This document shows, piece by piece, positions 7,507 to 38,055 of a stretch of 64,000 bases of DNA. The notes under the pieces were generated by a model, which worked only from the letters and a program-made list of their open reading frames with translations, was not told the origin of the DNA and made no database searches. Numbering within the stretch: the first letter of the stretch is position 1; each line of letters starts with the position of its first letter. Source of the DNA: Fluviicola sp. (GTDB taxonomy: Bacteria; Bacteroidota; Bacteroidia; Flavobacteriales_D; Crocinitomicaceae); contig NVXV01000004.1 in NCBI GenBank assembly GCA_002734085.1, positions 76,122 through 140,121 on the forward strand. The letters are read 5' to 3'. Position numbers and translations under genes: made by a program.

Positions 7507-8142
7507 CTAGAAAAGTAAACTAAAAAAACGATCTATTTTATTTTTAATGTTACTCAAATCACCTTGTAGTTCACGTATTCTAAGTACTCCTTGAATCAAT
7601 GGATCATCTTCATACTTCATATACTTTACGAGCTGTTCTGTAATATTAGACTCATAAAGTTTACACCTTTTAATCGTATTATATCCTTTTACTGTTTTAG
7701 GTGTATATCTCGATTTATCCACAATTTCAATGTGCATTAAGTATGGATCATAATGGGGATGGATAATTTTAAAAAACAAACCCGCTTTAGGGTAATCTGT
7801 ACGATCCCAAGGTATCATATCATTATTTATTGATTTCTTGGTATTACAACTTGTACAAGCAACACTTAAATTAGTAGGCAAAAAAGAAAATTCTGACCTT
7901 CCGTATAAATCACCTTTTGGAACCATGTGTTCTACTTGGATTACATCGCGAAACGGTAATTTGCAGTAGCTACAAAGACCATTTTGTTCTTTTTTATAGT
8001 GTTTACGAATACGATCTTTCAAAGGTTTTAAGTTTGTACTTGACCAATCATAAGAATTTTCTCTAATTTCTTGATGATCAAGCACACTTAACTTGAAAGG
8101 TTTTTCTATATTTTTTCGTTGCCTTTTACTTAATCTCGCCAT
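7507..8142 (-). CDS. ptuB: HNH endonuclease, Septu PtuB-like
   Basis: This 211-aa protein has an HNH fold. CSYC (Cys57, Cys60) leads into IQVEHMVPKG (His72), then NLSVACTSCN (Asn91, Cys96, Cys99) and a lysine-rich TKKS tail. It follows and overlaps a PtuA-like ATPase by 13 bp, the ptuA-ptuB order of Septu defence loci, where the ATPase-HNH complex degrades nucleic acid during infection. Length fits PtuB. It is the last gene of the long leftward run, and the next gene begins 169 bp further on. The alternative is a generic McrA-like HNH partner of an OLD-type ATPase. Confidence 0.75.
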   Translation of the reverse strand: MARLSKRQRKNIEKPFKLSVLDHQEIRENSYDWSSTNLKPLKDRIRKHYKKEQNGLCSYCKLPFRDVIQVEHMVPKGDLYGRSEFSFLPTNLSVACTSCNTKKSINNDMIPWDRTDYPKAGLFFKIIHPHYDPYLMHIEIVDKSRYTPKTVKGYNTIKRCKLYESNITEQLVKYMKYEDDPLIQGVLRIRELQGDLSNIKNKIDRFFSLLF

Positions 8143-9692
8143 TCTGCCTTTTCGATTAATTTTGTTATTGCATATTTAATTGGGTCTCCTTCACTGAGAC
8201 TCTCCTCCCATGATAATAATTCATCTTTGTTATCTTCAATCGACTTTAAGCCATTCAAACTTGCTTTCTTCATGATCTTAGCGAATCTATCTGCTAAATA
8301 AAAGTTTCTAGTTGTTGGCACATCAAAAACGTCTAATAGTACTTGTTCTGCAGACCATCCAAATGTGTTTACATCTGAAAAATGAACAGGTTCTATATCT
8401 CTATTTTTCACCAAACCAATGACGTGGGAGTTCATACCCTGAATATCCGAGATTAAAAAATGAGAATGAGTAGCAACAATAAAATGACAAGTCTTATATC
8501 CTTCAAACATTTTACGCAAATAGTCCATATATTTCATTTGCCAATTCGGATGTAAGCTCACTTCAGGTTCATCAATAAGAACAAGACTATTTTCCTCAAC
8601 ACTAGCCACAAGACCAATTAAAGAAGAAAGAAGGGAGTATTCACCAGAACTACTATCAACAAGGTTGAATTCGGAGTTTTGTTTACGTATATCAATAGAT
8701 GGATAACTAATTAAATCAAGTTTTTTCAACTGTTCAATCATTTTAAAATCATCAACAATATTTGCATCAGAAAGGACATCATAATGAAGTAATTTAGAAT
8801 TATCCTTTAAAAAATTTTTTGCCACATGTTGCAAAAAATCGACTATGCTTGAAACTAATTCGTTGTTTTCTTTTATGCTATCATAATATGTTGTTCCCCA
8901 AATTTCAGTTTCTCTTTTAGGAAAATATTCTTTTTGATGATTAAAAATACGATGAAATTCATCAACGTCAATATCTTCTTTATAAAACTCTCTTGAATAT
9001 ACAGGTTTATAGTAAATATTTACTGTTGGTTCCAAATCCAGAAAACTAAGAATTTCTTTAAGCTTAGCCTTAAAACCTTTTTTTTCTATAGAAGTAGTAA
9101 TCAATTCTACTGTTTTCCTAATGTAAGCTTTTGTACCTGAACTAGCTCTTGAACTGCGCACTCCTAAATAGGTATAACGTGGGAAATCTTCTTCTTTTAA
9201 AAATGGGAATTTATCTGTAATCATTAATGAATTGGCAATAATATTATTCGGCAATAGTATTTTATTATAATCATCTTCTATTTGATTATCAACCGTAAAC
9301 CATACACCTTTTGAAAATCTAGCTGCCATATGTTCACTATCCAATTTAAAGTTCCCGAATGAAAATTGTTTCCCATTTAAAAGATAAGTGAGAACAAACT
9401 TCCCCGGTACTTTATTAATTCTTTTGTCATTTTGTTTTAACTCATGAATTTCTCGAAATAAATTAATTACTGTTTTAAGAATATTACTTTTACCTGTACC
9501 ATTAGGCCCAATAACCACTGTGTTAAAAGGGTAATCTTCTAAATTATTTAAATCATCACAAAATTTCAAAAACAAATTACCTAGAACGGGATTTTCTTCA
9601 AGTTGAAGTGATATTAATTTAAATCCACTTGAAATACGGTTTCTACTATCTAGAATTTCATTTATTAGCTGTTGAGTTTCGTCCATTATCAA
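8130..9692 (-). CDS. ptuA: AAA/ABC-type ATPase, Septu PtuA-like
   Basis: A 520-aa SMC/ABC-like ATPase. Walker A is GPNGTGKS (62-69), the ABC-type signature SSSGE is near 347-351, Walker B is VLIDEPE (371-377) and a switch VATHS is near 406-410. No TOPRIM domain follows, which argues against an OLD nuclease, and no long SMC coiled coil is present. Together with the overlapping HNH gene this is the Septu arrangement. The start at 9692 is followed by a second ATG two codons later, and either may be used. The gene begins 22 bp after the patatin gene, so it is probably on the same message as the hydrolase cluster. Confidence 0.75.
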   Translation of the reverse strand: MIMDETQQLINEILDSRNRISSGFKLISLQLEENPVLGNLFLKFCDDLNNLEDYPFNTVVIGPNGTGKSNILKTVINLFREIHELKQNDKRINKVPGKFVLTYLLNGKQFSFGNFKLDSEHMAARFSKGVWFTVDNQIEDDYNKILLPNNIIANSLMITDKFPFLKEEDFPRYTYLGVRSSRASSGTKAYIRKTVELITTSIEKKGFKAKLKEILSFLDLEPTVNIYYKPVYSREFYKEDIDVDEFHRIFNHQKEYFPKRETEIWGTTYYDSIKENNELVSSIVDFLQHVAKNFLKDNSKLLHYDVLSDANIVDDFKMIEQLKKLDLISYPSIDIRKQNSEFNLVDSSSGEYSLLSSLIGLVASVEENSLVLIDEPEVSLHPNWQMKYMDYLRKMFEGYKTCHFIVATHSHFLISDIQGMNSHVIGLVKNRDIEPVHFSDVNTFGWSAEQVLLDVFDVPTTRNFYLADRFAKIMKKASLNGLKSIEDNKDELLSWEESLSEGDPIKYAITKLIEKAEWRD

Positions 9693-9714
9693 AATTTTAT
9701 GTTTTAAATTATAA

Positions 9715-10746
9715 TCACCTATTCTCTATCAGTTTTTCTACTATTTCATCTAACGTATTTTTATGTTCAGTAACTGCTAATTTGCCGTCGTTGTGGAGGG
9801 CGATTATGTTTTCTGGGGTTGCATTGTCCATTTCGTTGTCGGCGTGGTTAAGGTCGGGTTGGATGCGGTAGTAGTTGGATTCGTTTTCTTTGTCCAGAGT
9901 GCTGTAGATTTGTTTTAGGTGATGGTGGACTGTTTCGGAGTTTCCTGACATCATCATGTCGAGGGTGGGTTTGATCCATTTGATTTTGTTGGCGTTTTTG
10001 AAGTCTTCGAACTCGTAGGGTTTCTTTATTGTTCCTGTACCTAAGGAAACGATGATCATGTCTTTTGCGCTTGGTAAATCAGGTTTTTGTTCGTTTTTTA
10101 AAGTTGATGAAAAGTTGATTGTTCTTGCTTCTGAATAAGCGCAAAGAGATGGATTATTGGCAAAAATACCACCGTCTATCAATGTGTATGGTGTGCCGTA
10201 AATAGAATTAATACATGCGGGTTCGAAATATGTTGGCGCAGCGCTAGTTGATCTGGCTACGTCTTTTAAATAGAAGTTGTTAATATCGTCTTTAGCATCA
10301 TGACTTGTGAAAAAATGTGCTTTTCTATTTCGCATGTCATAACTCGTAATTAAGGAGGGTTTTAATAATTGGGAAATAGTATCATTTTTTAAATATGATG
10401 AAAGTGCTTTTTCTAATTCTTTTTCGGAATATTTTTCGTCAATTAATCCTGAAACGCTGGTTATCTTTTTTCTTAATGAAACATCAAAGATGTTTCCTCC
10501 ATGATTTAAGTATAAGTTTAAGGCTTCGTTTGCTGTGTATTTATATTTTCCTTCTTCATCCGCAAATAAATATAAAAGGGCTAATATTCCACCGGTACTC
10601 GTTCCGGCTATAAAGTCGAAATACTTGCCTATGGAAGCTTCTTTATCTCTTTTCTTGAGCTCATTTTCAATGTAAGCTAAAATTGTCCCAGGAAGTATGC
10701 CTCTTATCCCCCCACCATCTATTGATAATATTCTTATTTTTTTCAT
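9715..10746 (-). CDS. Patatin-like phospholipase
   Basis: This 343-aa protein has all the patatin hallmarks: the oxyanion loop DGGGIRG (10-16), nucleophile elbow GTSTG with Ser50, and the catalytic DGG motif with Asp191 in LIDGGIFANNP. Patatins hydrolyse acyl esters of membrane phospholipids. Bacterial cytoplasmic members of this size often act as abortive-infection effectors, for example CapV in CBASS, but no cyclic-nucleotide synthase is present in this window. No signal peptide is seen. It lies between the amidase (13 bp upstream) and ptuA (22 bp downstream). The coding bases at 9775-10020 look more G-rich than those of its neighbours. Confidence 0.9.
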   Translation of the reverse strand: MKKIRILSIDGGGIRGILPGTILAYIENELKKRDKEASIGKYFDFIAGTSTGGILALLYLFADEEGKYKYTANEALNLYLNHGGNIFDVSLRKKITSVSGLIDEKYSEKELEKALSSYLKNDTISQLLKPSLITSYDMRNRKAHFFTSHDAKDDINNFYLKDVARSTSAAPTYFEPACINSIYGTPYTLIDGGIFANNPSLCAYSEARTINFSSTLKNEQKPDLPSAKDMIIVSLGTGTIKKPYEFEDFKNANKIKWIKPTLDMMMSGNSETVHHHLKQIYSTLDKENESNYYRIQPDLNHADNEMDNATPENIIALHNDGKLAVTEHKNTLDEIVEKLIENR

Positions 10747-10759
10747 TACACTAGTTTTT

Positions 10760-11752
10760 CTATAATTCTAAAATCATCTCCAATAACTCCTTTTGAGGAA
10801 ATACATCAAACTTCACGGCTGAGACATTTGAATGTGACCAAACTCCTTTTTCTTTGATGCACATTTGTCGGTCAACTTTGTTTAGGGCTTTTGCGCCTTG
10901 ATTATTGATGAGGTTTTGGAGACCGTTTTTGATGTCTATGTTGTGTTTGTTTCCTATATGGATGAGGAGGTCTTTTAGAGATGTTAATTGTTGTTCTGAA
11001 TATTTATGCCAGTATTCATATCCTCGGAATTTTGTTTTTAGTTTTACTACTTGATCGGGGTGGGCTTCAGTGCCGACGTAAGTGTAGTGTTTTGATTTAT
11101 TTTTTTCTATCCACTTTTTTTCTCCTTGGACTCGGGTGTAATATCCTCCTTTGGTGAGGTAACCGAAGTTGCAAAGTTCTATTCCTATACTGTTACGATG
11201 CATTTCGTTATTACCTACTCCAAGATGCCATGCATAAGATCCTTCGGGCATTGCTTGAGCGATTTCTCCGTCGTAATCATTGTTATTGTCTTTGATGTTT
11301 TGTCCTCCTATTACGAATTCTGTAGCTATTTTACCTCGTTTATCTCGTCCCCAAGAGTCTATTACTTTGTAGGGATTGTTCCAACCTGCGGTGTGGTGGA
11401 GGAAGATCCATTGTTTGCTTCGGCTCACTTCGACTTCGCTCAGTGGCCGCCGCTCAGTAAGCGTCTCTGAAATTGCGGGAGGGGAAAAATATTGGTCTTC
11501 GTCTAAATGGTGTTCGTGAATAATTAATCCTGAATCTGTATAGTCAGTTGTTTCGGTATTATCTGTCGTGGCTGCTGCCATAGCCGCCCATGTTTGTGGG
11601 CCGACGATGCCATCCACTATAAGATTGTTTTCTTTTTGGAATTTAAGAACTGCTTGATGTGTTATTGGACCGAAGATTCCGTCTGTTATTAGACCGAAGA
11701 ACTCTTGGATTACTTTTACTTGCTCGCCGCGAGAGTTGAGTCTTAATATCAT
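10760..11752 (-). CDS. Peptidoglycan-binding N-acetylmuramoyl-L-alanine amidase
   Basis: A 330-aa protein with an N-terminal PG_binding_1 domain (residues 3-58, DGIFGPITHQAVLKFQ and VDGIVGPQTW), an acidic linker, then an amidase_2/PGRP-like domain from about 113. Visible zinc ligands are His119 or His120 in FLHHTA, His307 in WSHSNVS and Asp315 in KFDVFP. A GSYAWHLGVG motif (His176) and the IGIEL strand are typical of the fold. It would cleave the bond between muramic acid and the stem peptide. There is no signal peptide, so access to peptidoglycan would need lysis or another route. The linker is interrupted by a REP-like repeat read in frame (11424-11446). Confidence 0.88.
   Translation of the reverse strand: MILRLNSRGEQVKVIQEFFGLITDGIFGPITHQAVLKFQKENNLIVDGIVGPQTWAAMAAATTDNTETTDYTDSGLIIHEHHLDEDQYFSPPAISETLTERRPLSEVEVSRSKQWIFLHHTAGWNNPYKVIDSWGRDKRGKIATEFVIGGQNIKDNNNDYDGEIAQAMPEGSYAWHLGVGNNEMHRNSIGIELCNFGYLTKGGYYTRVQGEKKWIEKNKSKHYTYVGTEAHPDQVVKLKTKFRGYEYWHKYSEQQLTSLKDLLIHIGNKHNIDIKNGLQNLINNQGAKALNKVDRQMCIKEKGVWSHSNVSAVKFDVFPQKELLEMILEL
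11424..11446. repeat. REP-like palindromic repeat read in frame within the amidase
   Basis: The 23 bases at 11424-11446 contain the TTCGACTTCGCTCAG core typical of dispersed short repeats in Bacteroidota and other genomes. Here they encode the residues LSEVEVS in the amidase linker, just before the catalytic domain starts. The family assignment is from memory of such repeats. Confidence 0.5.
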
Positions 11753-11754: not shown

Positions 11755-13053
11755 TTAGTTCTTTTTCTTTTTACAAATAATTAGGAATTTATAAATCGCT
11801 ATATACAATAAAAGAAACCCTAAAGGAATGAATATATAGTAACGAGCATTCAGGTCAGACCATTCCCATTTAAAAATGAGTTTTGAAGCGTATATAACTA
11901 AACCGAAGCTTACTATCCAAACTATTGTAACAAAAAAGAATAATCCTAATTTCAATTTTTTTATTCTTTCTATTAAGTCATTTTTTATACTGGTAAAGTA
12001 TTCTAATTCTTTTCGATGATCATCAAAGAATTTTTGACTCGATAAATTACTGAAATCATGATGAATACCCTTATCTAATTTTTGTAAATCAAGCATTAAT
12101 AAACGGGCTAAAAATGAAGTGTAAAATACATAGCCAACTAGACCTAAAACGATTAATAGTAAAGGAAAATCATTTCCACTCAGTTTAAATAATGAAAAAG
12201 AGATGGCAGCGATTGAGAAAGGAAAGGCAACTACCTGGTTAGAAATTTTGCTGAGTATTTCATTTTGATTTTTAAAATAAGCTTGCTTGTATTCAGAATA
12301 TTCAGTCTGAATTTTTTCTAAGGACAAGCCTTGTAAGTATACGTTAAAATTTAGTTTCGCATCATTCAGAATTTTTTCAATTTTGTAAAAAAACGCTTCA
12401 AATTTAATCCCTGAAAAAGATGCTATATTAGAAATCATAGCGTTTTTAAGAAATGTATGGAAATGATTTCTTTCTTTAGTATAAGTGTCCTTGAACTCGG
12501 AGAATTTACTAAAGTAATTCACTTCAGTATTTAATGGAATGGTGCCTACTGGTTTAAATTTTAATTTAAGACGTCTTTTTTCCGATATGGATGAGAATAT
12601 AATTGAATTATTAGCTTCAGAATAAAAATCCACAAATTCAAAATTTTCTTGATCGTCATTGTCATGACAGTTCTTAAAAAATTGTATGGCCTCAAAATAT
12701 GCTAACGCATTGGCGAATAAAAAGTTTTGGGTTTCTTTACCATTCAGATAAACCTTCTCATCTTCTAATATAAGTGATTGATTTTCTACCTTATAATTAC
12801 TTATCACTACATTTTTTTCAAAGTGTTTTTTTTTAACAACGTTATAGAATTCAACTTCGTTATGAAAATATGCATAAGGAAGGTTTTCTTTTTCAACAAT
12901 TATGGATTGATTTCTTTTTTCAAAAAGAATACTTGAAGATCTCAAAAATGAGATAAGTTCTTCGTTAATTTCAAATATCAAGTTTTTGGTATCACCTATG
13001 TCATAGGAATAACCAAATTTAACCAAACTGATATGTATATTTAATACACTCAT
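11755..13053 (-). CDS. Four-TM membrane protein paired with a YejK-like protein
   Basis: A 432-aa protein I do not recognise. The first 250 or so residues are soluble and mixed alpha/beta, beginning with an N-terminal beta strand region. The C-terminal part has four hydrophobic segments, roughly residues 275-295, 298-320, 370-392 and 403-425, with a charged cytoplasmic-type loop between the second and third and a KKKKN tail. Its start overlaps the stop of the YejK/NdpA-like gene by four bases (ATGA), so the two proteins are probably made together. A membrane protein plus nucleoid-binding partner recalls the two-gene layout of Kiwa, but neither protein is shown to be homologous to KwaA or KwaB. 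Confidence 0.7.
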   Translation of the reverse strand: MSVLNIHISLVKFGYSYDIGDTKNLIFEINEELISFLRSSSILFEKRNQSIIVEKENLPYAYFHNEVEFYNVVKKKHFEKNVVISNYKVENQSLILEDEKVYLNGKETQNFLFANALAYFEAIQFFKNCHDNDDQENFEFVDFYSEANNSIIFSSISEKRRLKLKFKPVGTIPLNTEVNYFSKFSEFKDTYTKERNHFHTFLKNAMISNIASFSGIKFEAFFYKIEKILNDAKLNFNVYLQGLSLEKIQTEYSEYKQAYFKNQNEILSKISNQVVAFPFSIAAISFSLFKLSGNDFPLLLIVLGLVGYVFYTSFLARLLMLDLQKLDKGIHHDFSNLSSQKFFDDHRKELEYFTSIKNDLIERIKKLKLGLFFFVTIVWIVSFGLVIYASKLIFKWEWSDLNARYYIFIPLGFLLLYIAIYKFLIICKKKKN

Positions 13054-14051
13054 TCAAGTTCATCAAATTTAACTCTTAATTCTTGTGATTCAATTATTAT
13101 TTGATTTCTATTTCCAGGTCGAACTCTTGCGTCCTCTTTATCAGCTTTTGAAAAGGAAACTTTAATCTTACCAGATTTTATTTCATATTTTTTCAATTGT
13201 TTAAGGATTCTAAGAGCAGCTTGAAACTCTCCATTTATATCTATTTCTTCAGCTTCTGCCCTATTAACTAGAAAGTCTTCGTCATCCCAAAAAGTTCTGC
13301 TTAAATCTTTGACTCGTACGAGTCTTCCCGAAGAATTTATATGATCATATAAACGATTTCGAAACTCTTCTGAACCATATCTTTCTTCAGAATTTGGCTT
13401 AAAAGGTAATTCATTAGGTCCTAATGAATTAAATATTCTAAGTAAAGCCTTTGTGTCATCAACGCTTTTTTCAGCTAAGTCAGCTTCTATCCAATCAATG
13501 AAATAATCTGACTGGTGTTGTTGTCTTTTTGTGTAATGTAAATATCTCGTTTCATTATTTGAGTATAGTGAAAGGTTGACTCGAGCTGCCATTGCCAACT
13601 TACTTGTGTCTACAATTGTAGTAGTATTAACAGTGTAATTATTAGAATCAGATTTTTTGAATATTATTTCTTCGCTATCGCGAACCATAAAAACTCCAAG
13701 GTAATTTACATTTCTATATTCATACTCCATAAAAACAAAGTAGCCACCTGTTGCAAAATTATTACCAGTCATTAAGTCTGCCATTCGAATAAGAGATGCT
13801 TCGGCAAAATCCATAAATTTTTCTACAGATTTATCTTTAGAAAAAACCTCAACTGTAGATTGAAATACGTTTTTTTCTTCTACAAATTCTGTTTTTAATA
13901 CTTTCTCATCTTTTTTAAATGCTTCGTTTAGGCGTTCAACTAAATCTTTAGTATTATCATCTATATTCAAAGTTGAGCTTGACTTATCTATTCTTGGCCC
14001 TTGCCCTTGTTCTTTATCTATTAGGTGAATTATTGCTTTTTTTAACTGCAT
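13050..14051 (-). CDS. Nucleoid-associated protein, YejK/NdpA (NA37) family
   Basis: This 333-aa protein matches the NA37 family throughout, as I recall E. coli YejK. The block FMDFAEASLIRMADLM leads into ATGGYFVFMEYEYRNVNYLGVFMV, then AARVNLSLY and ETRYLHYTKR, followed by a helical C-terminal half. YejK-type proteins bind nucleoid DNA. Here the gene is accessory and coupled to a membrane protein, which is not its usual chromosomal setting. This suggests a sensing or tethering role in defence. It starts 36 bp after the alpha/beta hydrolase gene. Confidence 0.82.
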   Translation of the reverse strand: MQLKKAIIHLIDKEQGQGPRIDKSSSTLNIDDNTKDLVERLNEAFKKDEKVLKTEFVEEKNVFQSTVEVFSKDKSVEKFMDFAEASLIRMADLMTGNNFATGGYFVFMEYEYRNVNYLGVFMVRDSEEIIFKKSDSNNYTVNTTTIVDTSKLAMAARVNLSLYSNNETRYLHYTKRQQHQSDYFIDWIEADLAEKSVDDTKALLRIFNSLGPNELPFKPNSEERYGSEEFRNRLYDHINSSGRLVRVKDLSRTFWDDEDFLVNRAEAEEIDINGEFQAALRILKQLKKYEIKSGKIKVSFSKADKEDARVRPGNRNQIIIESQELRVKFDELE

Positions 14052-14087: not shown

Positions 14088-15782
14088 CTAGTTTTTAGCA
14101 AAATATTCAAAAATAACTTTTCGGACATCTGCTTTTTTGCCGTTTTTCTTTGGGTGGTTTGGGTCGAATTGTTTTCCGTGGATGCAGTTGTATTCGAAGT
14201 TTTTTTCATATTTGGCATTGAATCCGGACATTTGTTTGCGTTGTTCGGTGCAGCCTATTACCCAATCGTTTTCAGATTTAAAGGCTAGCCAGAGTAGTTT
14301 GTCAAACCCATTGGCTAACCATCTTTTAAATTTCTTATCTATTAACGATCCATCGTAATCTCCTACCATTGATTTAATTCTTACTTGATCTATGGGGTTT
14401 GATGAAAGTATCTTTTTTAGTTCTTTGGATTCGGGCATCATTACTTCAAGACCGGGTTGTGTGCGTATTGCGTTGATCGAAAATTGAGAAATGGCTAAAA
14501 CGTAACCCCATCCTGCTTTTGAAGATGTCTTTTTGAGCATACTTAACACTCTATCTAATCCTTTGGCTACTTTCAATAAATCTGAACCATGGGCCGGTGC
14601 AAATGTTAAGAGCTTATTGATTTTTATCTTTCGATAGGCTTTATCATAGGAAGATAAAGTTTCTGCAACTAATGCACCTCTGGATGTTGTAATCACATCT
14701 ACTGGCTCAGTAAACATTTTGTTTCCTAAAAGTTTTAGTAACCAATCTACATTTTCTTTTACGGAATGTGAAGCAGTAGGGTGATTGAAGGCTAAAACCT
14801 GTTCATAGGTATTACTTTTTATTAATTCTTTGAGTAAGCTATGACCGCTTTTATTAGAGGAGTTTGATTCTAATAAATCACCAAAAGAACCATTCACTGA
14901 ACTGAATGTTCCGTGTATTAAAAGCAATGTTTTTTCACTCTCTACTATTTGATTCTTCTGATCTATTTCTAAAAATTCATCTTTGCTTTTCGATGAAACA
15001 AATTTGTAAATTCCGTATTTCTTTTCACCCAATTTATTAAGTGCTTTATGTGCTAAATTTGTACCTAAGTCGGTTGCTTTATTTAAGTTCTTTGTGACTT
15101 TTTCTGTGTACTTTTTTAGATCTGACTCGTGTCTAGGAAACGTAAGAACTTTAAGTGCAAATTGAGTTTTGTTTTTGCTATCCTTTTCAACCAATTTGAT
15201 TGCATCACTTTCGCGTTCAAATTTTTTATTGAAATTATAGGTAAATCTATACGATAGTGAAAATCGATCCTGGCTATAATTTTTATCTGTTGACTCAGGT
15301 GTTATTAAGTATATTTCGGCATCTTTAGAATTATGTTTATCGATGGGATTTTCTTCCAAATAAACCAAGGCTCCTTCATCTTTCTCAAGAAACAAATCAA
15401 ATCTTAGTTGAATTTCTTCTTCGCTTGTTATTCTCTCTGGAATATTTAAAAACGTTATTGCAGAAAAATCTATAAAACGTTCGCGTATGTCAGAATATTT
15501 TTCGATTTCAACATTTTGCTCTTTTAATAAATCAACGGTTTCTTTTGTTACTCCCTTGTGATCAATGTTACCTTGTTCTGAAAATTTTATTTTACCTGAT
15601 GCCACTAAATGTTTATCGTTTGCCCAGCCCAAGGTTCCCCAGATTTCATTTATTTTTTTGTATTTAGATTTTTTAAAATCGTAGATTCCTAGCTTAGTAC
15701 TTTTGGCTTCTCCTCCAATTTTAAGAAAGCTGTATTCTTGATGTTCGAATGTAATTTCATTTAGGTTAAAATTTAGTGCCAT
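14088..15782 (-). CDS. Alpha/beta-hydrolase-fold protein (lipase-like)
   Basis: A 564-aa protein. The first 270 residues are an uncharacterised beta-rich domain. The C-terminal half is an alpha/beta hydrolase with LLLIHGTFSS (His290-Gly291) forming the oxyanion region and DVITTSRGALVAE with probable nucleophile Ser367. The elbow reads TTSRG rather than GxSxG, which lowers certainty about catalysis. The likely acid is in VGDYDGSL and the likely histidine in NCIHGKQF near the C-terminus. There is no signal peptide. It sits between a lipoprotein gene (34 bp) and the YejK-like gene (36 bp), a second candidate lipase in the same run as the patatin. The substrate is unknown. Confidence 0.7.
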   Translation of the reverse strand: MALNFNLNEITFEHQEYSFLKIGGEAKSTKLGIYDFKKSKYKKINEIWGTLGWANDKHLVASGKIKFSEQGNIDHKGVTKETVDLLKEQNVEIEKYSDIRERFIDFSAITFLNIPERITSEEEIQLRFDLFLEKDEGALVYLEENPIDKHNSKDAEIYLITPESTDKNYSQDRFSLSYRFTYNFNKKFERESDAIKLVEKDSKNKTQFALKVLTFPRHESDLKKYTEKVTKNLNKATDLGTNLAHKALNKLGEKKYGIYKFVSSKSKDEFLEIDQKNQIVESEKTLLLIHGTFSSVNGSFGDLLESNSSNKSGHSLLKELIKSNTYEQVLAFNHPTASHSVKENVDWLLKLLGNKMFTEPVDVITTSRGALVAETLSSYDKAYRKIKINKLLTFAPAHGSDLLKVAKGLDRVLSMLKKTSSKAGWGYVLAISQFSINAIRTQPGLEVMMPESKELKKILSSNPIDQVRIKSMVGDYDGSLIDKKFKRWLANGFDKLLWLAFKSENDWVIGCTEQRKQMSGFNAKYEKNFEYNCIHGKQFDPNHPKKNGKKADVRKVIFEYFAKN

Positions 15783-28747: not shown

Positions 28748-31700
28748 GGTTGTATACTATTTATTAAAATTACTTCTATTTCATTAATGAGATCAATTGT
28801 ATTCGTAGCTGAAAAATCATTCGTCGTGGTTTGACCATGGCTATTTAAAGGTCTCTTAAATTGAATCAATGGAACATGCAAATGACCTGTGGGTAAGCTT
28901 GAATTAGTATTAGCTCTAATTCGTGATACACGATAAAAAACCTCATTAGATAAATAAGAACCTCCTGAACCTCTGATTGCTTTAATTTGATCCTGAACTT
29001 GATTTATAGGTAAATTGGATCCTGTAAGCTCAACATGACCTTGTATCGAATCATTAGTATTTTTTTCTACAACACCACTAAACTTTATTTCATATTCATA
29101 AGTTTGATTGAAATAAATCCTGTACTTCGCTCCAGATGGATTAGTTGTCGGAACCATTTTGTCTTCAGGCAGTTCACTTTCATAAAACTCATCTCCTTGA
29201 ACTGAACTAGGAAAAGGTATATTTCTTATACATTCATTTCCTCTAGTACCACCTCTAGTTCTTGATGCAAATCTATCAACGTCAAATCGAAAAACACCAC
29301 CCTGACTCATAGTTACAATCTCATCAACTGGAGTATAACCTGGATGAGAAGGGTCTATGAACTGGGTAAAAAACTCTTCTATTATGCCTTCACCATTATC
29401 TTGGTCAAAATCGCGATACCTCACAGGTAAAATCGCAGATTGAATAACTGCATCATTAGGAGATCCAGGAATTGTTTCACCATGTAGTTTTAATGCTGCA
29501 GCTCCAGAAGGATTACTTTGCAATATATTCACATCAAGAAAGAAAGGATCATATCCAGTAACCAAGATTTTCTTATTAGTTGTTGAACCAAAATCAATAT
29601 CATTATAACCTCGAGACAACTTTTCAAAAAGACGTACGAGTTCATTTCTTGCTGATAATGACTGAAGAACAAATGGGTGACTTTTTAAGGTCACAAGCAT
29701 TTTAATCCTTGCCCAATATAAGATACGGTCGTCAGGTCTAACATTTTTCACATATTCCCTTGCCCTATCTAATATTTTTGGTGCATAGTCATTAATGTGT
29801 CCTTCAAGATTGGATTTTGAATTTACATCATTAACAACCGCAGATACATCGCTCGTAAAATCGTCAACAACAGTACGCATTGGTAGAGTACCTGATATTG
29901 AACCTTCTTTATCCAAATCAATGAAGTGATCTTCCCAAGACTTTTTAGTTAAATGTAGCTTACCATCAACAGTAGAATTTGAAATACCAGGTGAGACTTC
30001 TATCACAGTATCTCCACTAACTATTGAAAGATTAACAACTGTATATAGACCATCATTACCTGTTGATCCAGCAATTTTGACATTATCATTTATAGCTAAA
30101 TAATCCAACTTATCTCCAGTAATTGTAACCGAGTTCGCTCCAGTATCTACATTGTCAATATTTCTCGGGAATGAACCAGTTGACGTGGGACGATCAGTGA
30201 CCCCGTGATTCTCTTCACAGCTTCTAATATATACAGTCGGAAGAGGCTCGTCTACGGAAAAGGCATCTGTAAAAAACAATAATCCATCAGTTGAATAAAC
30301 TTCAATATCTGTAGAAGGGAACACATTTGCATACTCGCCATTTGTGTCTAATCCTTGCATACCTACTTTATATTTAGTAAAACCTAATCCTGATCCAATT
30401 TCATCTAAAATTGCTGTTGCAGGGTAATCATTACTTAATCCAGAAAGTCCTTCTAAGATATCAAATTCGGGTCTCGACAACCCTAAAATCATCATAGCTT
30501 GAGCAGGTGCAGATTCCACTGAAGTAGGTTCAAGCTTTAGGGATGTGATTGGAGTACCTGCATCATCTAATACATCAAAATGCAATCGATAACCCGCAAA
30601 ACTCATTGCTTCTTCAAAGAAGCTTGATTTTTTACTGGTACCGCCTGTTAAACCGTTTAATGGAGGAAATAAAACAGGTGTTTTGAACGAATCTAAAGCA
30701 GAAGCGTAAAATATTACACGTCCACCTCCCGGAGTAGAAGTGTCTTCAACTGCAACTCCTCTTTCTGCTACATAACCGAAATCGTTTACTGAGGCATCAA
30801 TATATTTTTTGTCCTGAATTCCTATCCATTTGATGTTATTATCTGAATTCCATGGAATAATATCCAAATTTACAGGACCAAAAACATTGTCGAGGTATGA
30901 TTCTGTTTTAATTGCCTTAGGAATTGAAGTCCAACTAACCGAGGCATCAATTTGTCTAGAATAATGAAGTTTCAATAACCATGAAATGTTTTGTTTATTA
31001 CCACTAACATCAGGATCATCCGTATTAGGTTGTTCAAAAGTGAGTTCTTCTGTTTCAAGGTTGCCTGACTGTAATAAATTATTTCCTTCAATAAATCGAC
31101 CGCCTTCTGCTTTCGTCAAATCTTGTAAGCCTCCATGTTCTATGTAGAGAATTGGTTTAGGATTCTCATCAGCACGTAATTTAAAAGAGAAATCATGAGT
31201 ATCATTTGTAGTTGCCAATGAAATTGAATTTAAAATCAATATCGGCCAACCTTCAATACCATATTTCTGAGCGTTGAAACTACCCGAAGGATCAGTTTTT
31301 ACTTGAATATTAAACTCGTCAACAGAGCCATCATTATAATGTTCGAAAAAATTATATGAATTGCCGAGTTCATTTCTTATATCAATATATGTTGTGTTTT
31401 TTGTGTGAAATTTTTCTATTACATCATCATAAATGTCTTGCTCTTTTTTATCGACTGTATTGTTGGAAGAATCTCGATACTCTACTACTCCATTTTCCTT
31501 TACATGCAATCCATAAAAAGCAGCTGGATCAATGAAGTTGAGAATTTTTTCTCTTTCGAGTTTATTCAAAAACGCATCACTAATTCCACTAATATCTATC
31601 TCTTCATGACTTGAACGTACAAAATCAAAATCAGGGGTAAATTCACCTTCTTCTAGTATTATATCAATCCCGAAAGGTTGGTTGATATCAAACTCTCCCA

Positions 31701-34700
31701 ATCGCACTCCTTTTAGGGCCATTGGCAATTGAAAATCGGGATCGACCTTAAAGAATTCCTGATCTATGGAAGTACTTCCAGTAATAGTAGGGTCATATCC
31801 AATAGCTTTACTCAAGAATGTAGCACCTGTACCGTTTTGACTTTCATGTATATTATAAAGCTCTGCAATCCATTCTGAATTGGAAGGGTCTTTTGGTGTA
31901 ACCTCTGTTGGAGTACTTGTATCTATAAAATCTGATTCTTTTAGACCTCTATAAATAATGTACTTAACTGGTGTAAAACCAGGTATTGGTTGAGTAAATG
32001 GTCTTAGAATTAAATTAACTGTACCTGCAACAACACCCGGTTGCACCATCATTTTTCCTTTTACAATTGCATAGGCGCTTGTATCTACAGTTGCTGTAAA
32101 TCGGCTTGTTACTCTAAATATATCAGTTTCTTCATCCGGTTTGGGACCAAAAGCATGATCTTGGATCTGTGTAAGATTATCCATATCAGCAAAAGCATAA
32201 GATTTTGGAAAAAGTGGGGGTGCTCCCAACAATAGTCCTTTTGATTCTAGGGCTGATTCATTGATATTCACAGATATTGAGCTTTCTGCAACGGAGTATT
32301 TCTCAGAACTTCCAACAGTTTTGTTAATAATGGGCTCTAAAATAATCTTCGAGTATAATTTAGAAACAAAAAAGTCTCCTTCGAAAGAAATATCATCCTG
32401 AACGCCTGTTGCTATTGAAGTAGAGCCAAACAGTGTGGGTGTATTAATATCAAGCCAATCAGGGTTTACTGATGATTCATCTAATAAAACCCAAGCACTT
32501 CCGTTAAAACTGAACTTAGCACTCTGAGGAGTATTCACTTTATCAAATATGGTTGCCTTTACAATAATATCCTCAGTAATAAAGTTGCCAAAATTTGCTC
32601 TGATATTAATTTTAAATCCTTTTTGTACAATTGTTCCAAATTCATCAACTTCAATCAATTCTTCCAGTTCGTTTAATCCTGTAGAGTCTTTAAATTCAAA
32701 TTCACTGAAAAAAATCTCTCTATAGGAGATATTATTATTATTTTCTGGACCTAACCCTATTTCAATAGGAGATCCAATACCATCAACGACAACACCATCA
32801 TGGGGTGTGATTTCTCCAATCAAAAATATTCTACATTCATTATCATTCTTTGGTATTATACTACTAGGCCATAAAACTTTAACAATTTGATTCTCTCCAG
32901 GATTAATTGACTCAAGATCAGCATTATCTACATTATAGATCTCACAAGCACTTAAATCAGTAAAAAAAGGTTCTACCATGTCAGTCAATGGAACTGAATC
33001 ATCCCAACTCTGCGGAAAATGAAACGGTGTGGGTCCAACTAATGGTTCACCTTCACTTAATGCAACATAAAACCTTGCCTGTGCATCAAGACTTGTAAGT
33101 TCATTACCTCTATTTATAGCTCTGATATAAATCCACCGATCACTTAAAGGATCCAATTGGATTATCCATTTATTACCTAACGTGTGACCTGATGAACTCT
33201 CAAACTTGACCAATATAAGTTCAATCTCTTTATAGCTAGTATAATCTGAGAGTGCAAGCCCATTATTCTGCTCAACACCATCTTTACTCCATTTAAATGT
33301 ATCTGGTCCCACCCCATCTATCTCTATTTCATATTCTTGTACACTTGTAGCTTGAGAAATTCCTTTTACTTTCAAATCATTCAAGTCACCCGAACCCCCT
33401 ACGAATGAAGGCCTAGCAACTCCGCTCTTGGGGTTTTCATGAGGAACATCATTGATGTCTAACCCCTCAAAGGCTTCATTTACATTTGTCAGCCAGATAT
33501 CAGGACTACTAATAGGGTTTACACTTAAATTTGTAATCACTGTACCACTGTCTCCTATAAAATTTCTTAGCATTAAATCTCGATGATCATGACTATATTC
33601 AAAAGCATTTTTGACAGCTTTTAAAGCGTCTAAGCGACCATAACCAAATTCTGAGTTCCAAACGGGTGATCTTCCTCCCTGAACATTTACCCCAGATGCA
33701 TGATCAAAAAGTAGTGGTTCAATAGTAAGAAAATCTCCTGTCTTATCAATAATAACTGAAAAATCTCTCGGTGAAGTTCCAATTTGGATTCCCTGTCCTT
33801 CTTTAAGTCCTAATCCAGAAGTTACTTTTATTACAGTATCTCCTTGGGACGCTTGAACAGCTAAAGTAGTTGGAGATCCCACTGGTATAATATTATCAAA
33901 ACTGTCAAGTATTGATTGAGAAAGATTGTCTTTCCATTCTTTAAAGTTGTTCAAACGTACTTTAATTGTAGAATTTCTTAAAATTTCTCGCACTTCAATC
34001 CACGTCAACGTCGGTTTTACTGTTAATACCAGTGCGCCAATTCCTGCACAATATGGAGCAGCTGCCGAAGTTCCATTAAACCTGTTTGTATAATGATTAT
34101 TTGCTCCACTAAAAACTCTATCTCCAAAAATCCCATCATTATGTGTATTTAGTGGACCTGAAATTCTAATTTTAGTTCCATCAATAACAGACTGAACATG
34201 TTGAGCTTCAGCATGTGGTGAATCAGGTGGGCCAATAAAAATCCATCGATTAGTTGTAAGATTGGTAGCAATATTAGATGTGTCGTCAATTTCTATTTCA
34301 GTAGATCCGACAACAAGGTCAGATGAATTACTGCTCAAAATATTAATCGTTTCTACTGAACCATAAGTGCTAGATAATGGAGGATAGATTAAAATTTTGG
34401 TCTTATTGGCATGCGCCCCAGATGTTATTTCTTCTACTCCAAATACATTTACATATTCAAAAGAAGAGCCAGTACCAACTTTTATTACAGCTTTAATTGG
34501 TGTTCTGTTTGTAATTTCTTCTGATGTAAATAAGTTATCCACTAAAAGTTCAATATCTCCTGAAGTAGGTTGTTCCAATGAAGTTGTTATGTAACCAATT
34601 TCTGGAAAAGGAATATGCACATTTGAAAATACAGTAGATACGTCTAATGCAAGCTTCCAATATGTTGCGCCATGAATGGTTTCATTTGTAATATTGTTAA

Positions 34701-37128
34701 CTAATAACCACTCATTTTCAACTTTATCTCCTGCTTGTCCAATCTTTATCCAATCACCAATCGATATATCAACATTTTGATCAACGACTATGAAGCCAGA
34801 ACCCGGCCAAGCTCCAGCATAGAACTCTTGTTCTACCCTCAAATCTAATATAGATATTGGCGCTAAAAATTGATGTTCAACCCCTTCTGACAATATATTT
34901 CCAGTACCATTAGCTACAGTACTAATTATCCTTAACAAGCCTTGATCTGGGTTATGCGATTCTACAAAGTTTCCTCCACCGAATCCTGCCCATTCAATCT
35001 TCCCAACATCTTCTGACCCAGAATCATTTGAAAAATTACTATAATTAGCAAGTGTTTCAAATTTCCCTATCCCAAAAGTATTTGTTAATTTCTGAATCAT
35101 TGTGGCCGCACAAGCAAAAGTCTTATCGTACGAACTCCAACGGGCAATTGGTTGTGCAATCTCTTCGTTGCCTGCTGACATAAATAACATAGTACCCCTT
35201 CCATTTCTACCACGCCTAGTCACAAAGTCAATGAATGACTGTGTCTCAGGATCTGGAGTTGTACCTATTCCCCCAATAGATAAACTTATTGATAATATAT
35301 CTGCACCTTTAACAATCATTGGGACTTCAAGATCGCTACTTTCAAAGGGGAAACCTTTTAATCCTGCAGTCCAGATATATTCTTTAATGGAAGTATTTAC
35401 CCCACTAAGATTACGGGGTATAATTCCCATGAGTTGGCAATTGGGTACAACACCACTCGAACCAATTCCGTTATTGCTTTTTGCTCCAAGTATTCCAGCT
35501 ACAGAAACTCCATGATCTTCACTTTGTGAAGTGTCATTATCTGCGAAAAAAGATATTACATCAAATTTTCCATATTTATAGATTTTTCTACGTGATTCAA
35601 TTACATTATTTATTGAGGAATGTGTTTTATAAAGTCCTGTGGTTGTCCAAGTGGATCCATTTATATGCTTAATAATAACTTCCTCCGTATCAGAATGACC
35701 TTGTGTGCCAATTGAAACAACTTGACCCACTTTGAAAGTGCCAGACACATTTGTTACATCAAATGATGATTCACTTGCTGGCACTATTTCCTCAGTTACA
35801 CCAAAAATCTGTAGTCCTCCTCCTAAATCAAATAAAAACAATGGAGTATTTAGAGGATGAGCTATTTGCGTAGGAGTCGTTTCAATTGTCCACGAATTAG
35901 ATGTTCCAATTTGTGTTGCCGTTATTACCTCAAGAAAACCCTCTTTGTTTCTACCCAAAAAGAATTGATCACCAGGACTAAGAATACTAAATGAATCAAG
36001 TTTTACCTGAAATATTGAAGTTGCTGGATTAAGATTTCCAACAAACTCAGCTGAAGCAGAATCTCCAACTAAACCCTGAAATTCTTCATTTTCTGGCACA
36101 CCACCAATAGAATTAATTCCATCATCTATTACTGCTATGACAATATCTGGGTCACCGAACGTTTTATCAACACTGCTTTCAGGATTGACATTTAAATTGA
36201 TAAATTCCCATGCATCTTCAAGCCTTCCTCGTTTTCGACTCCATGTGTATGGCCACAAAAAATCATTAGGAACTTCTCCATCCTTTTTAGTTACTGATTC
36301 TATTCCAGGATTCGCAAATTCAACTTTTTCTGAAGTTTTCATCTGGTCGAGAATATTTTGAATTCCTATACCAACTCCAAAGTCACTGCGAAAAGTATAC
36401 AAATGACTTGACCCTAATGCTTTATGAGTAAGCTTCAACCCTAGTGATTCAATAACTTCCTTTATCTCATCTCTAAGAATATTCCTTTTAAATTGAACCT
36501 TAACTTCATTTGTTAAAACCAAAATTGAATTTTCATTTTGTTCCAATATCAATCCTGCTTCTCTAATTAATGGACTCTGACGAAATAAGGCAAGTATTTG
36601 GTCATCGTTTGCAGCTACATCAGTTGGCATACCATCTGAATTTCGCTTGGTGTAAACAAAATATTTAAACTGATCTAATGGGTCCTTATAATTTGACTCA
36701 AGAAAACTGAGATAATTGTCATCTGACAAATAATCTAATTCGAGTAGGATAGCCAGCTGTTTTAAATCATTCAAGGTTTTTAAATTTGGAAGAATTCCAA
36801 TCTGAGAGGGGTTGTACGCAAAGGAAGCTTCTTGTTTATTGATACTTACAATAAGTTCATGTTCGGCTTGAAGTGTATATTCCAATTCAAGTTGATTTGC
36901 TGGGTCTGTGATTTGTATGGTTTCATCAATTGGATGATAATTTGTTTTTGAGATACGTAAATTGTAGTCCCCCACAATCATATCATATGCTAAATATCCG
37001 CCAATTTCATAATCATATTTCAATGACTTTGTTTTATTACCTTCATCGCTTAATAATACCTGACAGTCAATTAACTTTCCCTGATTCGAGTTGACAATAA
37101 CTTTTAACTGGTGTACGTTTTCGCTCAT
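28744..37128 (-). CDS. Giant 2794-aa subtilase (S8 peptidase) split by beta modules
   Basis: The S8 triad is visible as Asp335 (AVIDDG), His539 (SEDHGVSVAG) and Ser1021 (FNGTSAAAP), with oxyanion Asn654 (SAGN). Residues 200-277 fit a fervidolysin-type prodomain. The first 90 residues resemble a carboxypeptidase-regulatory/PEGA-like beta domain. No signal peptide is present. The triad normally spans about 300 residues; here it spans almost 690. Two beta modules sit between Asp and His and about three between Asn654 and Ser, each of the TxIxVxxxxxxxxGDxIxIG type. A further copy follows Ser at about 1085-1160. The remaining 1600 residues are beta-rich and unrecognised. It is flanked by secreted proteins and is probably the central enzyme of this run. 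Confidence 0.9.
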   Translation of the reverse strand: MSENVHQLKVIVNSNQGKLIDCQVLLSDEGNKTKSLKYDYEIGGYLAYDMIVGDYNLRISKTNYHPIDETIQITDPANQLELEYTLQAEHELIVSINKQEASFAYNPSQIGILPNLKTLNDLKQLAILLELDYLSDDNYLSFLESNYKDPLDQFKYFVYTKRNSDGMPTDVAANDDQILALFRQSPLIREAGLILEQNENSILVLTNEVKVQFKRNILRDEIKEVIESLGLKLTHKALGSSHLYTFRSDFGVGIGIQNILDQMKTSEKVEFANPGIESVTKKDGEVPNDFLWPYTWSRKRGRLEDAWEFINLNVNPESSVDKTFGDPDIVIAVIDDGINSIGGVPENEEFQGLVGDSASAEFVGNLNPATSIFQVKLDSFSILSPGDQFFLGRNKEGFLEVITATQIGTSNSWTIETTPTQIAHPLNTPLFLFDLGGGLQIFGVTEEIVPASESSFDVTNVSGTFKVGQVVSIGTQGHSDTEEVIIKHINGSTWTTTGLYKTHSSINNVIESRRKIYKYGKFDVISFFADNDTSQSEDHGVSVAGILGAKSNNGIGSSGVVPNCQLMGIIPRNLSGVNTSIKEYIWTAGLKGFPFESSDLEVPMIVKGADILSISLSIGGIGTTPDPETQSFIDFVTRRGRNGRGTMLFMSAGNEEIAQPIARWSSYDKTFACAATMIQKLTNTFGIGKFETLANYSNFSNDSGSEDVGKIEWAGFGGGNFVESHNPDQGLLRIISTVANGTGNILSEGVEHQFLAPISILDLRVEQEFYAGAWPGSGFIVVDQNVDISIGDWIKIGQAGDKVENEWLLVNNITNETIHGATYWKLALDVSTVFSNVHIPFPEIGYITTSLEQPTSGDIELLVDNLFTSEEITNRTPIKAVIKVGTGSSFEYVNVFGVEEITSGAHANKTKILIYPPLSSTYGSVETINILSSNSSDLVVGSTEIEIDDTSNIATNLTTNRWIFIGPPDSPHAEAQHVQSVIDGTKIRISGPLNTHNDGIFGDRVFSGANNHYTNRFNGTSAAAPYCAGIGALVLTVKPTLTWIEVREILRNSTIKVRLNNFKEWKDNLSQSILDSFDNIIPVGSPTTLAVQASQGDTVIKVTSGLGLKEGQGIQIGTSPRDFSVIIDKTGDFLTIEPLLFDHASGVNVQGGRSPVWNSEFGYGRLDALKAVKNAFEYSHDHRDLMLRNFIGDSGTVITNLSVNPISSPDIWLTNVNEAFEGLDINDVPHENPKSGVARPSFVGGSGDLNDLKVKGISQATSVQEYEIEIDGVGPDTFKWSKDGVEQNNGLALSDYTSYKEIELILVKFESSSGHTLGNKWIIQLDPLSDRWIYIRAINRGNELTSLDAQARFYVALSEGEPLVGPTPFHFPQSWDDSVPLTDMVEPFFTDLSACEIYNVDNADLESINPGENQIVKVLWPSSIIPKNDNECRIFLIGEITPHDGVVVDGIGSPIEIGLGPENNNNISYREIFFSEFEFKDSTGLNELEELIEVDEFGTIVQKGFKINIRANFGNFITEDIIVKATIFDKVNTPQSAKFSFNGSAWVLLDESSVNPDWLDINTPTLFGSTSIATGVQDDISFEGDFFVSKLYSKIILEPIINKTVGSSEKYSVAESSISVNINESALESKGLLLGAPPLFPKSYAFADMDNLTQIQDHAFGPKPDEETDIFRVTSRFTATVDTSAYAIVKGKMMVQPGVVAGTVNLILRPFTQPIPGFTPVKYIIYRGLKESDFIDTSTPTEVTPKDPSNSEWIAELYNIHESQNGTGATFLSKAIGYDPTITGSTSIDQEFFKVDPDFQLPMALKGVRLGEFDINQPFGIDIILEEGEFTPDFDFVRSSHEEIDISGISDAFLNKLEREKILNFIDPAAFYGLHVKENGVVEYRDSSNNTVDKKEQDIYDDVIEKFHTKNTTYIDIRNELGNSYNFFEHYNDGSVDEFNIQVKTDPSGSFNAQKYGIEGWPILILNSISLATTNDTHDFSFKLRADENPKPILYIEHGGLQDLTKAEGGRFIEGNNLLQSGNLETEELTFEQPNTDDPDVSGNKQNISWLLKLHYSRQIDASVSWTSIPKAIKTESYLDNVFGPVNLDIIPWNSDNNIKWIGIQDKKYIDASVNDFGYVAERGVAVEDTSTPGGGRVIFYASALDSFKTPVLFPPLNGLTGGTSKKSSFFEEAMSFAGYRLHFDVLDDAGTPITSLKLEPTSVESAPAQAMMILGLSRPEFDILEGLSGLSNDYPATAILDEIGSGLGFTKYKVGMQGLDTNGEYANVFPSTDIEVYSTDGLLFFTDAFSVDEPLPTVYIRSCEENHGVTDRPTSTGSFPRNIDNVDTGANSVTITGDKLDYLAINDNVKIAGSTGNDGLYTVVNLSIVSGDTVIEVSPGISNSTVDGKLHLTKKSWEDHFIDLDKEGSISGTLPMRTVVDDFTSDVSAVVNDVNSKSNLEGHINDYAPKILDRAREYVKNVRPDDRILYWARIKMLVTLKSHPFVLQSLSARNELVRLFEKLSRGYNDIDFGSTTNKKILVTGYDPFFLDVNILQSNPSGAAALKLHGETIPGSPNDAVIQSAILPVRYRDFDQDNGEGIIEEFFTQFIDPSHPGYTPVDEIVTMSQGGVFRFDVDRFASRTRGGTRGNECIRNIPFPSSVQGDEFYESELPEDKMVPTTNPSGAKYRIYFNQTYEYEIKFSGVVEKNTNDSIQGHVELTGSNLPINQVQDQIKAIRGSGGSYLSNEVFYRVSRIRANTNSSLPTGHLHVPLIQFKRPLNSHGQTTTNDFSATNTIDLINEIEVILINSIQP

Positions 37129-37140
37129 CTTTTGATCTCT

Positions 37141-38055
37141 TTAATATGGGTATTTGAATTGTATATAATGAATTTTGACAAAATTAACTTCAGGATGTTC
37201 ATATAGCTTTATAGATTTTTCGAATACATCTAATCCCGAGTTGTTAGCTAATTTTATCCATCTGAAATCACCTCCTGGAATTCTGCCCGCCTCATGGGTA
37301 TCATACATAGCTAATATCTTTTTCCGCTCAGAGTGATTAACATATTTGTTGAATCTAATAGTAAGAGTTTGTTGGAAAATTGTCATTTCATAAAAATCAC
37401 CTATATAAGGACCTGCAACTGATACGCTCTTTTCTGAACGGAATTGACTAAGTTTAAATTTGTACAATGAATCGACGTAAGATTCAGAATGTATAAGAGC
37501 TAGATAACCCTCAGTACCATGACTGCTGAAAGAAGTCCTAATAGTGTCATATTTACCTTTATGAATTGACTCAATTATTTCTACAACTTGTTTTCTATCA
37601 GTAATACCAAAATGTACAGCGAAAGAATTTTTCTCTACATAAACGGGTGAGTATATATCTCCATTACATACGTAAACATCTGTTTTCTCTCCTAGGAAGA
37701 AAAATATTTGATAAGAATTCACATCATCACTTGAAATAATTCTTTTATGGTCTTTAAGCTCATCATGTTTTACATTTATACGAAAAGTATCTGATTTAAA
37801 ATCAATATGAAAACCTTTCAGACTATCAGAATAAGATAAAAGAGAGTTATTACAAGTTACATTTGCATCAAATACGACCTCCCACTTTGATTTATCATCA
37901 AACATACTACCTCTAAACACTTTGACTACCCTTGTTTGTGCAAAAGTCGATGCTTGCGAAAGAATTAATAAAAATAGAACCAATAAGCATAAACTACACT
38001 TATAAAAAGTATTTGATAAATTGATTGGATAATATTTTGTCGTAATCAAATTCAT
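37141..38055 (-). CDS. Secreted protein ending in a stand-alone subtilase-prodomain-like fold
   Basis: A 304-aa protein with a long N-terminal hydrophobic signal (CSLCLLVLFLLILSQASTFA) and cleavage probably before QTRVV. Its final 75 residues follow the beta-alpha-beta-beta-alpha-beta pattern of S8 prodomains. The strand TLTIRFNK precedes a helix with SERKKIL, then GGDFRWIKL, helix LDVFEKSIKLYEHP and strand EVNFVKIHY. They line up well with residues 205-275 of the adjacent subtilase. Since the gene begins the run and lies 12 bp before the protease, it could encode a free inhibitor or folding chaperone of that enzyme. Function is inferred from pattern only. Confidence 0.6.
   Translation of the reverse strand: MNLITTKYYPINLSNTFYKCSLCLLVLFLLILSQASTFAQTRVVKVFRGSMFDDKSKWEVVFDANVTCNNSLLSYSDSLKGFHIDFKSDTFRINVKHDELKDHKRIISSDDVNSYQIFFFLGEKTDVYVCNGDIYSPVYVEKNSFAVHFGITDRKQVVEIIESIHKGKYDTIRTSFSSHGTEGYLALIHSESYVDSLYKFKLSQFRSEKSVSVAGPYIGDFYEMTIFQQTLTIRFNKYVNHSERKKILAMYDTHEAGRIPGGDFRWIKLANNSGLDVFEKSIKLYEHPEVNFVKIHYIQFKYPY

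Follow-up and report, generated by a model that had tools for sequence, protein, structure and literature searches.

A run of 13 minus-strand open reading frames (ORFs), extending from position 38055 to position 7507 of a 64,000-nucleotide stretch of Fluviicola sp. contig NVXV01000004.1 (the window), encodes an S8 protease, a patatin, a peptidoglycan amidase and giant proteins, and it raised the question of what such genes could be doing together. A first-pass annotation, made from the sequence alone, had proposed that the whole run is one system, either lytic, directed at abortive infection or forming a large particle. Comparison with related loci indicated that three giant proteins, termed B, D and E, are the conserved part of this run. 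The reading that we favour, with a probability of about 0.55, is that these three would constitute a delivery module for polymorphic toxins, which is probably a weapon against rival bacteria. Polymorphic toxins are of a known kind; what would be new is the carrier formed by B, D and E and its link to fibre genes and to release genes of the phage type.

Relatives of D were collected from a scan of genome contigs, which gave 170 pattern stretches, 125 of them with a D relative. The best 80 of these 125 were kept, and all of these records were from Bacteroidota except for one Acidobacteriota and one Rhodospirillales metagenome-assembled genome. The 84 sources compared (the window, two further genomes and 81 loci) were heavily Flavobacterium, and some genomes contributed two loci, so that all counts are of loci. 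D was present in 84 sources, E in 77 and the B core in 67. E was located within 200 nucleotides after D in 76 of the 77 loci with enough flanking sequence (the miss being L128), and B was found upstream of D in 61 of 68 such loci; in five of the seven misses (L070, L080, L104, L107, L114, L117 and L130), D is preceded by a string of other ORFs. B, D and E, in this order, form a conserved syntenic unit. The remainder of the run did not accompany them. BLASTP (E <= 1e-3), which may overlook fast-evolving small proteins, detected no counterpart of a304, c181, the lipoprotein, the DUF7379 protein, the NA37 protein, the transmembrane (TM) protein, the patatin, Septu or AbiE in the 83 other sources and a relative of amidase j330 in only one (L058). 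A single system of 13 genes was rejected on these grounds, the giants occurring elsewhere largely without the hydrolases of the run. The first-pass annotation was right to single out the giants and made a fair guess in proposing lysis or a particle, but its extension of that guess to the whole run was not upheld.

The giants are found across many Bacteroidota. D was matched in 7 of 99 relatives (one match being weak) and E in 7 of 296 genomes of the phylum (one match being partial), with the genome of the window counted in both cases. No E match was found among plasmids, and spread of E by plasmids was discarded. Apart from a weak DUF6603 (PF20248) match in D relatives, the B core, D and E had no Pfam family; DUF6603 was detected in 6 of 10 D members at E <= 1, with a best value of 2.4e-7, and not in the D of the window. 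E additionally lacked any NCBIfam or PHROG match and any significant PDB match. Searches of the open-access literature found no paper on DUF6603 and no published name for the B-D-E module.

What the module carries was best seen in the relatives. Many loci have a stand-alone B core of ~680 to 740 amino acids followed by a protein of ~900 to 1240 amino acids. Family 5 comprises 26 such proteins from 25 loci of Flavobacterium and others, and, of the 13 fifty-residue blocks that make up the first 650 residues, 12 had 35 to 48% identity to the reference, whereas identity was 18 to 30% after residue 700. A conserved N-terminal part joined to a highly variable C-terminal part was therefore present in the family 5 relatives, though not in the window. 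Elsewhere B is longer (948 to 1497 amino acids), and the extension may be the toxin part. Pfam analysis of 54 of 71 C-terminal pieces (the pieces omitted were very short, resembled others or came from the S8-type B of L057, L060 and L061) detected EndoU in four, C15 in three and PAF-AH, Chlorophyllase, Reprolysin_5 and Astacin in one each. Among 83 of the 105 small ORFs between B and D that were scanned, there were two SMI1_KNR4, one SUKH_6, two toxin-deaminase, one EndoU and eight IS200 transposase matches, with other families having one or two hits each. Swappable C-termini together with candidate immunity genes suggest the pattern of polymorphic toxins, which are characterized in the available sections of Zhang et al. 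(2012; PMC3482391) by a constant front and diverse C-terminal toxins. As far as those sections go, the likeness extends to EndoU, toxin-deaminase and SUKH families and to small ORFs lying in arrays, in some cases with IS200 transposases; the differences are that the B core, D and E have no Pfam match other than the weak DUF6603 and no signal peptide by hydropathy.

Toxin-like C-termini and SUKH genes in the relatives point to competition, although the element that carries the run also carries Septu and AbiE, and the abortive-infection part of the first-pass proposal was left without direct support. A related explanation is that the run senses phage and then destroys all envelope layers in an abortive or lytic response. 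Septu and AbiE on the same element would fit this, as would a CBASS-type cyclase gene (SMODS, 2.7e-6) located a few genes from B in genome G021, followed by genes looking like Cap2 and Cap3, and the resemblance of the patatin k343 to CBASS effector phospholipases (NCBIfam score of 176 against a cut-off of 200 bits). Against it are the toxin and SUKH families and the failure of the hydrolases of the run to recur with the giants, one amidase apart. Furthermore, no cyclase (CD-NTase) was detected by Pfam among the 23 window proteins scanned, for which reason CBASS was also dropped as an assignment for the patatin. We consider an anti-phage system quite improbable.

The effector of the window was examined through the B proteins of its own type. 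A B protein of 2703 to 2913 amino acids is present in the window and in L057, L060 and L061. S8 was detected by Pfam in the window, L060 (equivalent to L016) and L061, and the L057 protein aligns with S8. The S8 catalytic motifs are present in the B of the window, at D335, H539 and S1021, and the top PDB sequence match was Mirolase (6.6e-16). The S8 domain of B is probably the effector of the window. A small gene with an export-like N-terminus was seen by eye upstream of B in the window, L057 and L060; none was seen in L061. Profile alignment of the C-terminal half of the window version, a304, with the S8 pro-region of B gave a probability of 33% and a pairwise E value of 4.5e-4 for stretches picked by eye, compared with values of at most 1.3% for 38 control pieces, all from the D alignment. 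An attempt to prove from single sequences that a304 is an S8 inhibitor failed. It is possible that a304 is an exported inhibitor protecting the producer and its siblings, and we treat this as a lead and not as a result. The position of c181 between B and D, where candidate immunity genes are found in relatives, makes it a candidate immunity protein.

How such a module could leave the cell was addressed by inspection of the flanking genes. Upstream of B, a family of ~150 amino acids was found at 16 loci, a spanin-like family of 163 amino acids at 18 and a family of 95 amino acids at 14, all in Flavobacterium records; these counts are lower bounds because the fetched flanks often stop short of that point. 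One member of the ~150-amino-acid family is a CHAP endolysin (Pfam, 5.5e-13). Single members matched PHROG entries for endolysin (2.6e-17) and transcriptional repressor (1.1e-17) and, weakly, for an Rz-like spanin (0.0026) and a hol-like protein (0.0037), and a DNA transposition protein of the MuB type (1.8e-51) was detected in one strain. The same phage-type repressor was located upstream in G123, G318 and G393. An M15 peptidase (1e-18) precedes B in G361 in place of the lysis cassette, a PG_binding and M15 hydrolase adjoins E in G021/L056 and, in L058, the second gene after E encodes an Amidase_2 and SH3 protein; the window, G021/L056, L058 and G361 are thus alike in having some kind of peptidoglycan hydrolase close to the giants. 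An SGNH-like reading of a 379-amino-acid protein of L058 was abandoned, as it had no Pfam match. Downstream of E, a fibre-like N-terminal motif was found in 49 of 1028 ORFs, every one of them on the strand of E. Of the 75 loci in which 700 or more nucleotides follow E, 44 had the motif, 42 of them within 250 nucleotides; the pattern used had been relaxed after a stricter version had given 22 loci. Two of the fibre-like examples matched PHROG tail proteins (3.8e-8 and 2.7e-11), and one fibre-assembly chaperone was recognized (PF16778, 8e-20).

A simple hydropathy scan detected an N-terminal hydrophobic segment in a304, c181 and the lipoprotein f238 but none in B, D, E, the patatin, the amidase or the DUF7379 protein, in agreement with the earlier observation that the giants and these hydrolases lack signal peptides. 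Given that signal peptides are absent and that relatives have phage-type lysis genes or other hydrolases of peptidoglycan as neighbours, a weapon released by lysis or a large particle remains the best guess, but not one that covers all 13 genes. Because the giants lack signal peptides, a B-D-E complex would be assembled in the cytosol. In the proposed mechanism, D, which is beta-rich and amphipathic, and E would form a carrier or pore on which B docks the effector; the complex would exit the producer via lysis, a rival would be bound through the fibres or other receptor-binding parts, and the effector would then be delivered. Applied to the window, this would make the S8 protease on B the effector, with its action outside the cytoplasm; siblings would be shielded by exported a304, and perhaps by c181 as well, and the amidase and patatin may provide the lysis step. 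An AlphaFold model of the first 1093 residues of D consisted mostly of beta strands (pLDDT of 75.6), and these strands were amphipathic, so that D is possibly a beta-rich carrier or pore. Porins were among the matches in the Foldseek list, which covers the top ranks of that program and leaves room for folds outside it; a closed porin barrel is not established, because the pTM was 0.42 and the root mean square deviation to porins was high. A bolder version of the proposal is that toxins are delivered by a new kind of particle with no relation to contractile tails or to known secretion systems, in which D as pore or shell, E and a docking B carry exchangeable toxins with phage-type lysis and fibres, the head and tail of a Mu-like phage having been replaced by a protein carrier. 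We regard this version as tentative.

In Mu-like phages, the head and tail genes lie between the lysis and tail-fibre genes, and the Flavobacterium giants occupy this position between a lysis cassette and tail-fibre genes. B, D and E could accordingly be structural proteins of an unrecognized phage, satellite or domesticated tail-like particle, with the toxins being morons. However, D had no match in 50,697 phage records, neither D nor E of the window had a PHROG match at E <= 0.01 and, in viral contigs (IMG/VR), the only hit (a D relative in 1 of 45 stretches) was by eye outside the adjacent prophage, leaving this as the least probable of the explanations considered. That prophage, in L168 to L170 (G392), has terminase- and tape-measure-like genes and abuts the giants, with an integrase between them as judged by eye. 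An assignment of B-D-E to a known phage was likewise rejected on the absence of D from phage records and the placement of this hit. The prophage beside L136 appeared by eye to be separate from the giants. Inspection by eye recognized no head, terminase or tube genes in the surroundings of the G123 and G318 clusters, and a search for sheath PF04984 in 12 cluster-bearing genomes gave matches in seven, never at the B-D-E locus, and none in the other five.

Several observations weigh against the delivery module and its release by lysis. The window lacks a CHAP-spanin cassette, a fibre-motif gene and a separate family 5 toxin, and a fibre-motif gene is likewise absent from the majority of its closest listed sources. 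Known toxin or immunity families were found in a minority of the C-termini and small ORFs. Neither BLASTP nor phmmer gave anything significant between a304 and the S8 pro-region, no Pfam pro-domain was detected in the a304 counterparts of L057 or L060, and the profile probability is low, depends on stretches chosen by eye and has controls from a single alignment. The pTM of the D model and its distance from porins are further points of this kind, and, because of the Flavobacterium weighting, the locus counts are not independent events. No lysis genes were seen by eye upstream in Kordia algicida, and release by lysis is therefore not universal. The missing cassette in Kordia algicida and in the window would suit a secretion route, known or unknown, by which living cells export the same toxin module, the Flavobacterium lysis genes being leftovers of a Mu-like carrier phage; MuB-type and HTH (helix-turn-helix) repressor-like genes upstream of one strain's cluster would be consistent with such an origin. 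The giants, however, have no N-terminal hydrophobic segment, and peptidoglycan hydrolases with no obvious signal peptide are encoded downstream of E in the window and in L058, adjacent to E in G021/L056 and ahead of B in G361, which makes export from living cells unlikely. The strain concerned is a Flavobacterium (L162 of G381, positions 3066-7090), where these genes lie upstream of a lysis-B-D-E cluster with possible transposase pieces; a transposase reading of one piece was dropped, as it had no Pfam match.

The proposed toxin-delivery module was compared with known systems. In concept, it resembles extracellular contractile injection systems (eCIS), described in the available part of PMC8213781 as fibre-bearing, toxin-loaded particles released by lysis; unlike eCIS and tailocins, it had no sheath match at the cluster in the 12 genomes searched. 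The TANFOR toxins of Bacteroidetes, as presented in the accessible text of PMC7073777, are also large Bacteroidota proteins with toxin tips that include EndoU, but they mostly bear signal peptides and are proposed substrates of the type IX secretion system (T9SS), whereas the hydropathy scan showed no signal peptide on the window's B, D or E. A T9SS C-terminal sorting domain gave no Pfam match at E <= 1 in B, D or E, this being the only search aimed at it. MuF toxins of temperate phages share the tie between polymorphic toxins and phage genes and belong to packaging or head modules, according to the sections at hand of PMC5576092 and PMC11699363; no MuF match was found in ten B proteins or two toxin-slot proteins. 

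Mu-like prophages and tailocins have in common with the surroundings of the Flavobacterium giants a repressor, lysis genes, tail fibres and a fibre-assembly chaperone, and differ in that head and tail genes were not seen beside the G123 and G318 clusters, where the giants take their place. If the favoured reading is correct, many Bacteroidota hold a weapon with unannotated giant proteins and with delivery parts that fall in no named family. A route of toxin delivery without a contractile tail would be added, giant genes lacking a function would be explained and testable toxin/immunity pairs would be available, including an exported protein that possibly inhibits a protease effector.

Table 1. 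Features of the run and of the element backbone, in window coordinates
Feature	Position	Strand	Description
a304	37141..38055	-	304 aa, exported; gene upstream of B; candidate inhibitor of, or immunity protein against, the S8 domain
B	28744..37128	-	2794 aa; core component, probable effector carrier
B, S8 protease part	aa ~285-1200, nt 33529-36276	-	Pfam S8, 2.8e-22
B core	aa ~1625-2310, nt 30199-32256	-	Stand-alone ~700-aa counterpart in Flavobacterium
B, C15-like C-terminus	aa ~2500-2794	-	Pfam C15, 1.4e-5; peptidase activity predicted at most
c181	28202..28747	-	Exported 181-aa protein between B and D; candidate immunity slot; no family match
D	22252..28137	-	1961-aa giant, core component; possible beta-rich carrier or pore
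E	16549..22230	-	1893-aa giant, core component, without known family
f238	15817..16533	-	Probable lipoprotein after E; 0/83 other sources (BLASTP)
g564	14088..15782	-	DUF7379 (Pfam); alpha/beta-hydrolase-like by eye
h333	13050..14051	-	NA37/YejK family, 2.9e-32
i432	11755..13053	-	TM protein, several hydrophobic segments
j330	10760..11752	-	PG_binding_1 and Amidase_2; endolysin-like, without signal peptide; candidate release gene outside the conserved core
k343	9715..10746	-	Patatin phospholipase, Pfam 9.4e-26; adjoins j330
PtuA	8130-9692	-	PADLOC, 1.2e-98
PtuB	7507-8142	-	PADLOC, 1.2e-38
Element backbone	38871..42989	-	AAA, replication-like, HTH, RteC and tyrosine integrase genes and right 21-bp repeat, at tRNA-Asp

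The 13 ORFs of the run (Table 1) were all confirmed, as were the S8 protease, patatin, PG_binding_1 and Amidase_2, PtuA/PtuB and DUF7379 assignments (Pfam and PADLOC). Two features, the NA37/YejK protein and the multi-TM protein, were absent from the first-pass annotation. Spacing within the run was -13 to +36 bp, as previously described, except for 64 bp before D, whose start was corrected on the basis of homologue alignment (ATG at 28137 being favoured over TTG at 28242). The neighbouring upstream gene is 815 bp from the run, and AbiEi is 169 bp from its other end. The minus strand has five terminator-like sites; four of them fall within genes of the run, one falls within the gene upstream of it and none is between genes of the run. 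Promoter-like sites, which together with terminators had been named as features that might split the run, were not commoner than in shuffled sequence, and the Bacteroidota promoter pattern TTTG-N17-21-TANNTTTG had one match (on the plus strand) versus 4.2 expected. Spacing and both scans are compatible with a single message. No tandem DNA repeats were detected within 16500-38100.

Full-length relatives of j330, which is 4.8 kb downstream of E, were found in two uncultured phages of 635 to 642 kb (27 to 28% identity), and its PDB sequence matches include endolysins. Relatives of k343 were present in 20 of 99 genomes and matches to g564 in 3 of 247 genomes of the phylum, own genome counted in each case. 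There are hints that a patatin and a peptidoglycan hydrolase may act as a lysis pair, but these do not tie such a pair to the giants. In L157 (6144-7912), a patatin relative overlaps a CHAP and PG_binding hydrolase gene by 4 bp, beside a YdjC-like gene. A DUF7379 relative thought to be beside an endolysin in L154 was not used, as the neighbour had no Pfam match.

The NA37 and TM genes probably form a separate module of two genes, which may be a system that has no name yet; the pair recurs in G256 (L155:166-2452) on a 6.2-kb contig with no giant. The Septu pair, of which both the PtuA ATPase and the PtuB HNH protein are present, is a separate defence system neighbouring the giants. In the favoured reading, the NA37-TM pair, Septu and AbiE would be independent passengers on the same tRNA-Asp element. 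The run sits in an integrative element of 49.5 kb at this tRNA-Asp gene (42973-43047), as marked by the tRNA and by integrase, RteC, replication-like and AAA genes; an exact 21-bp repeat of the tRNA end is present at 42969-42989 and at -6560 to -6540, 49,529 bp apart. Related backbone genes (36 to 50% identity) occur together with giants in G021.

An AbiEi/AbiEii pair (5679-7337) directly follows Septu, and PIN_8, HerA-like DUF87, NurA and N6/N4 methylase genes form a tight run at 3-5663 that resembles another defence operon. In tandem at the same tRNA is a second element (-40000 to -6560; L175 and L176) whose integrase-RteC-replication backbone is similar, with metal-efflux-like genes further left, as judged by eye. 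Elsewhere in the genome of the window, a phage-sheath match was located at G000:C21:63696-64109, possibly belonging to an eCIS, and a second site, G000:C22:102466-102642, matched a short repeat region of E (residues 453-515, 53%).

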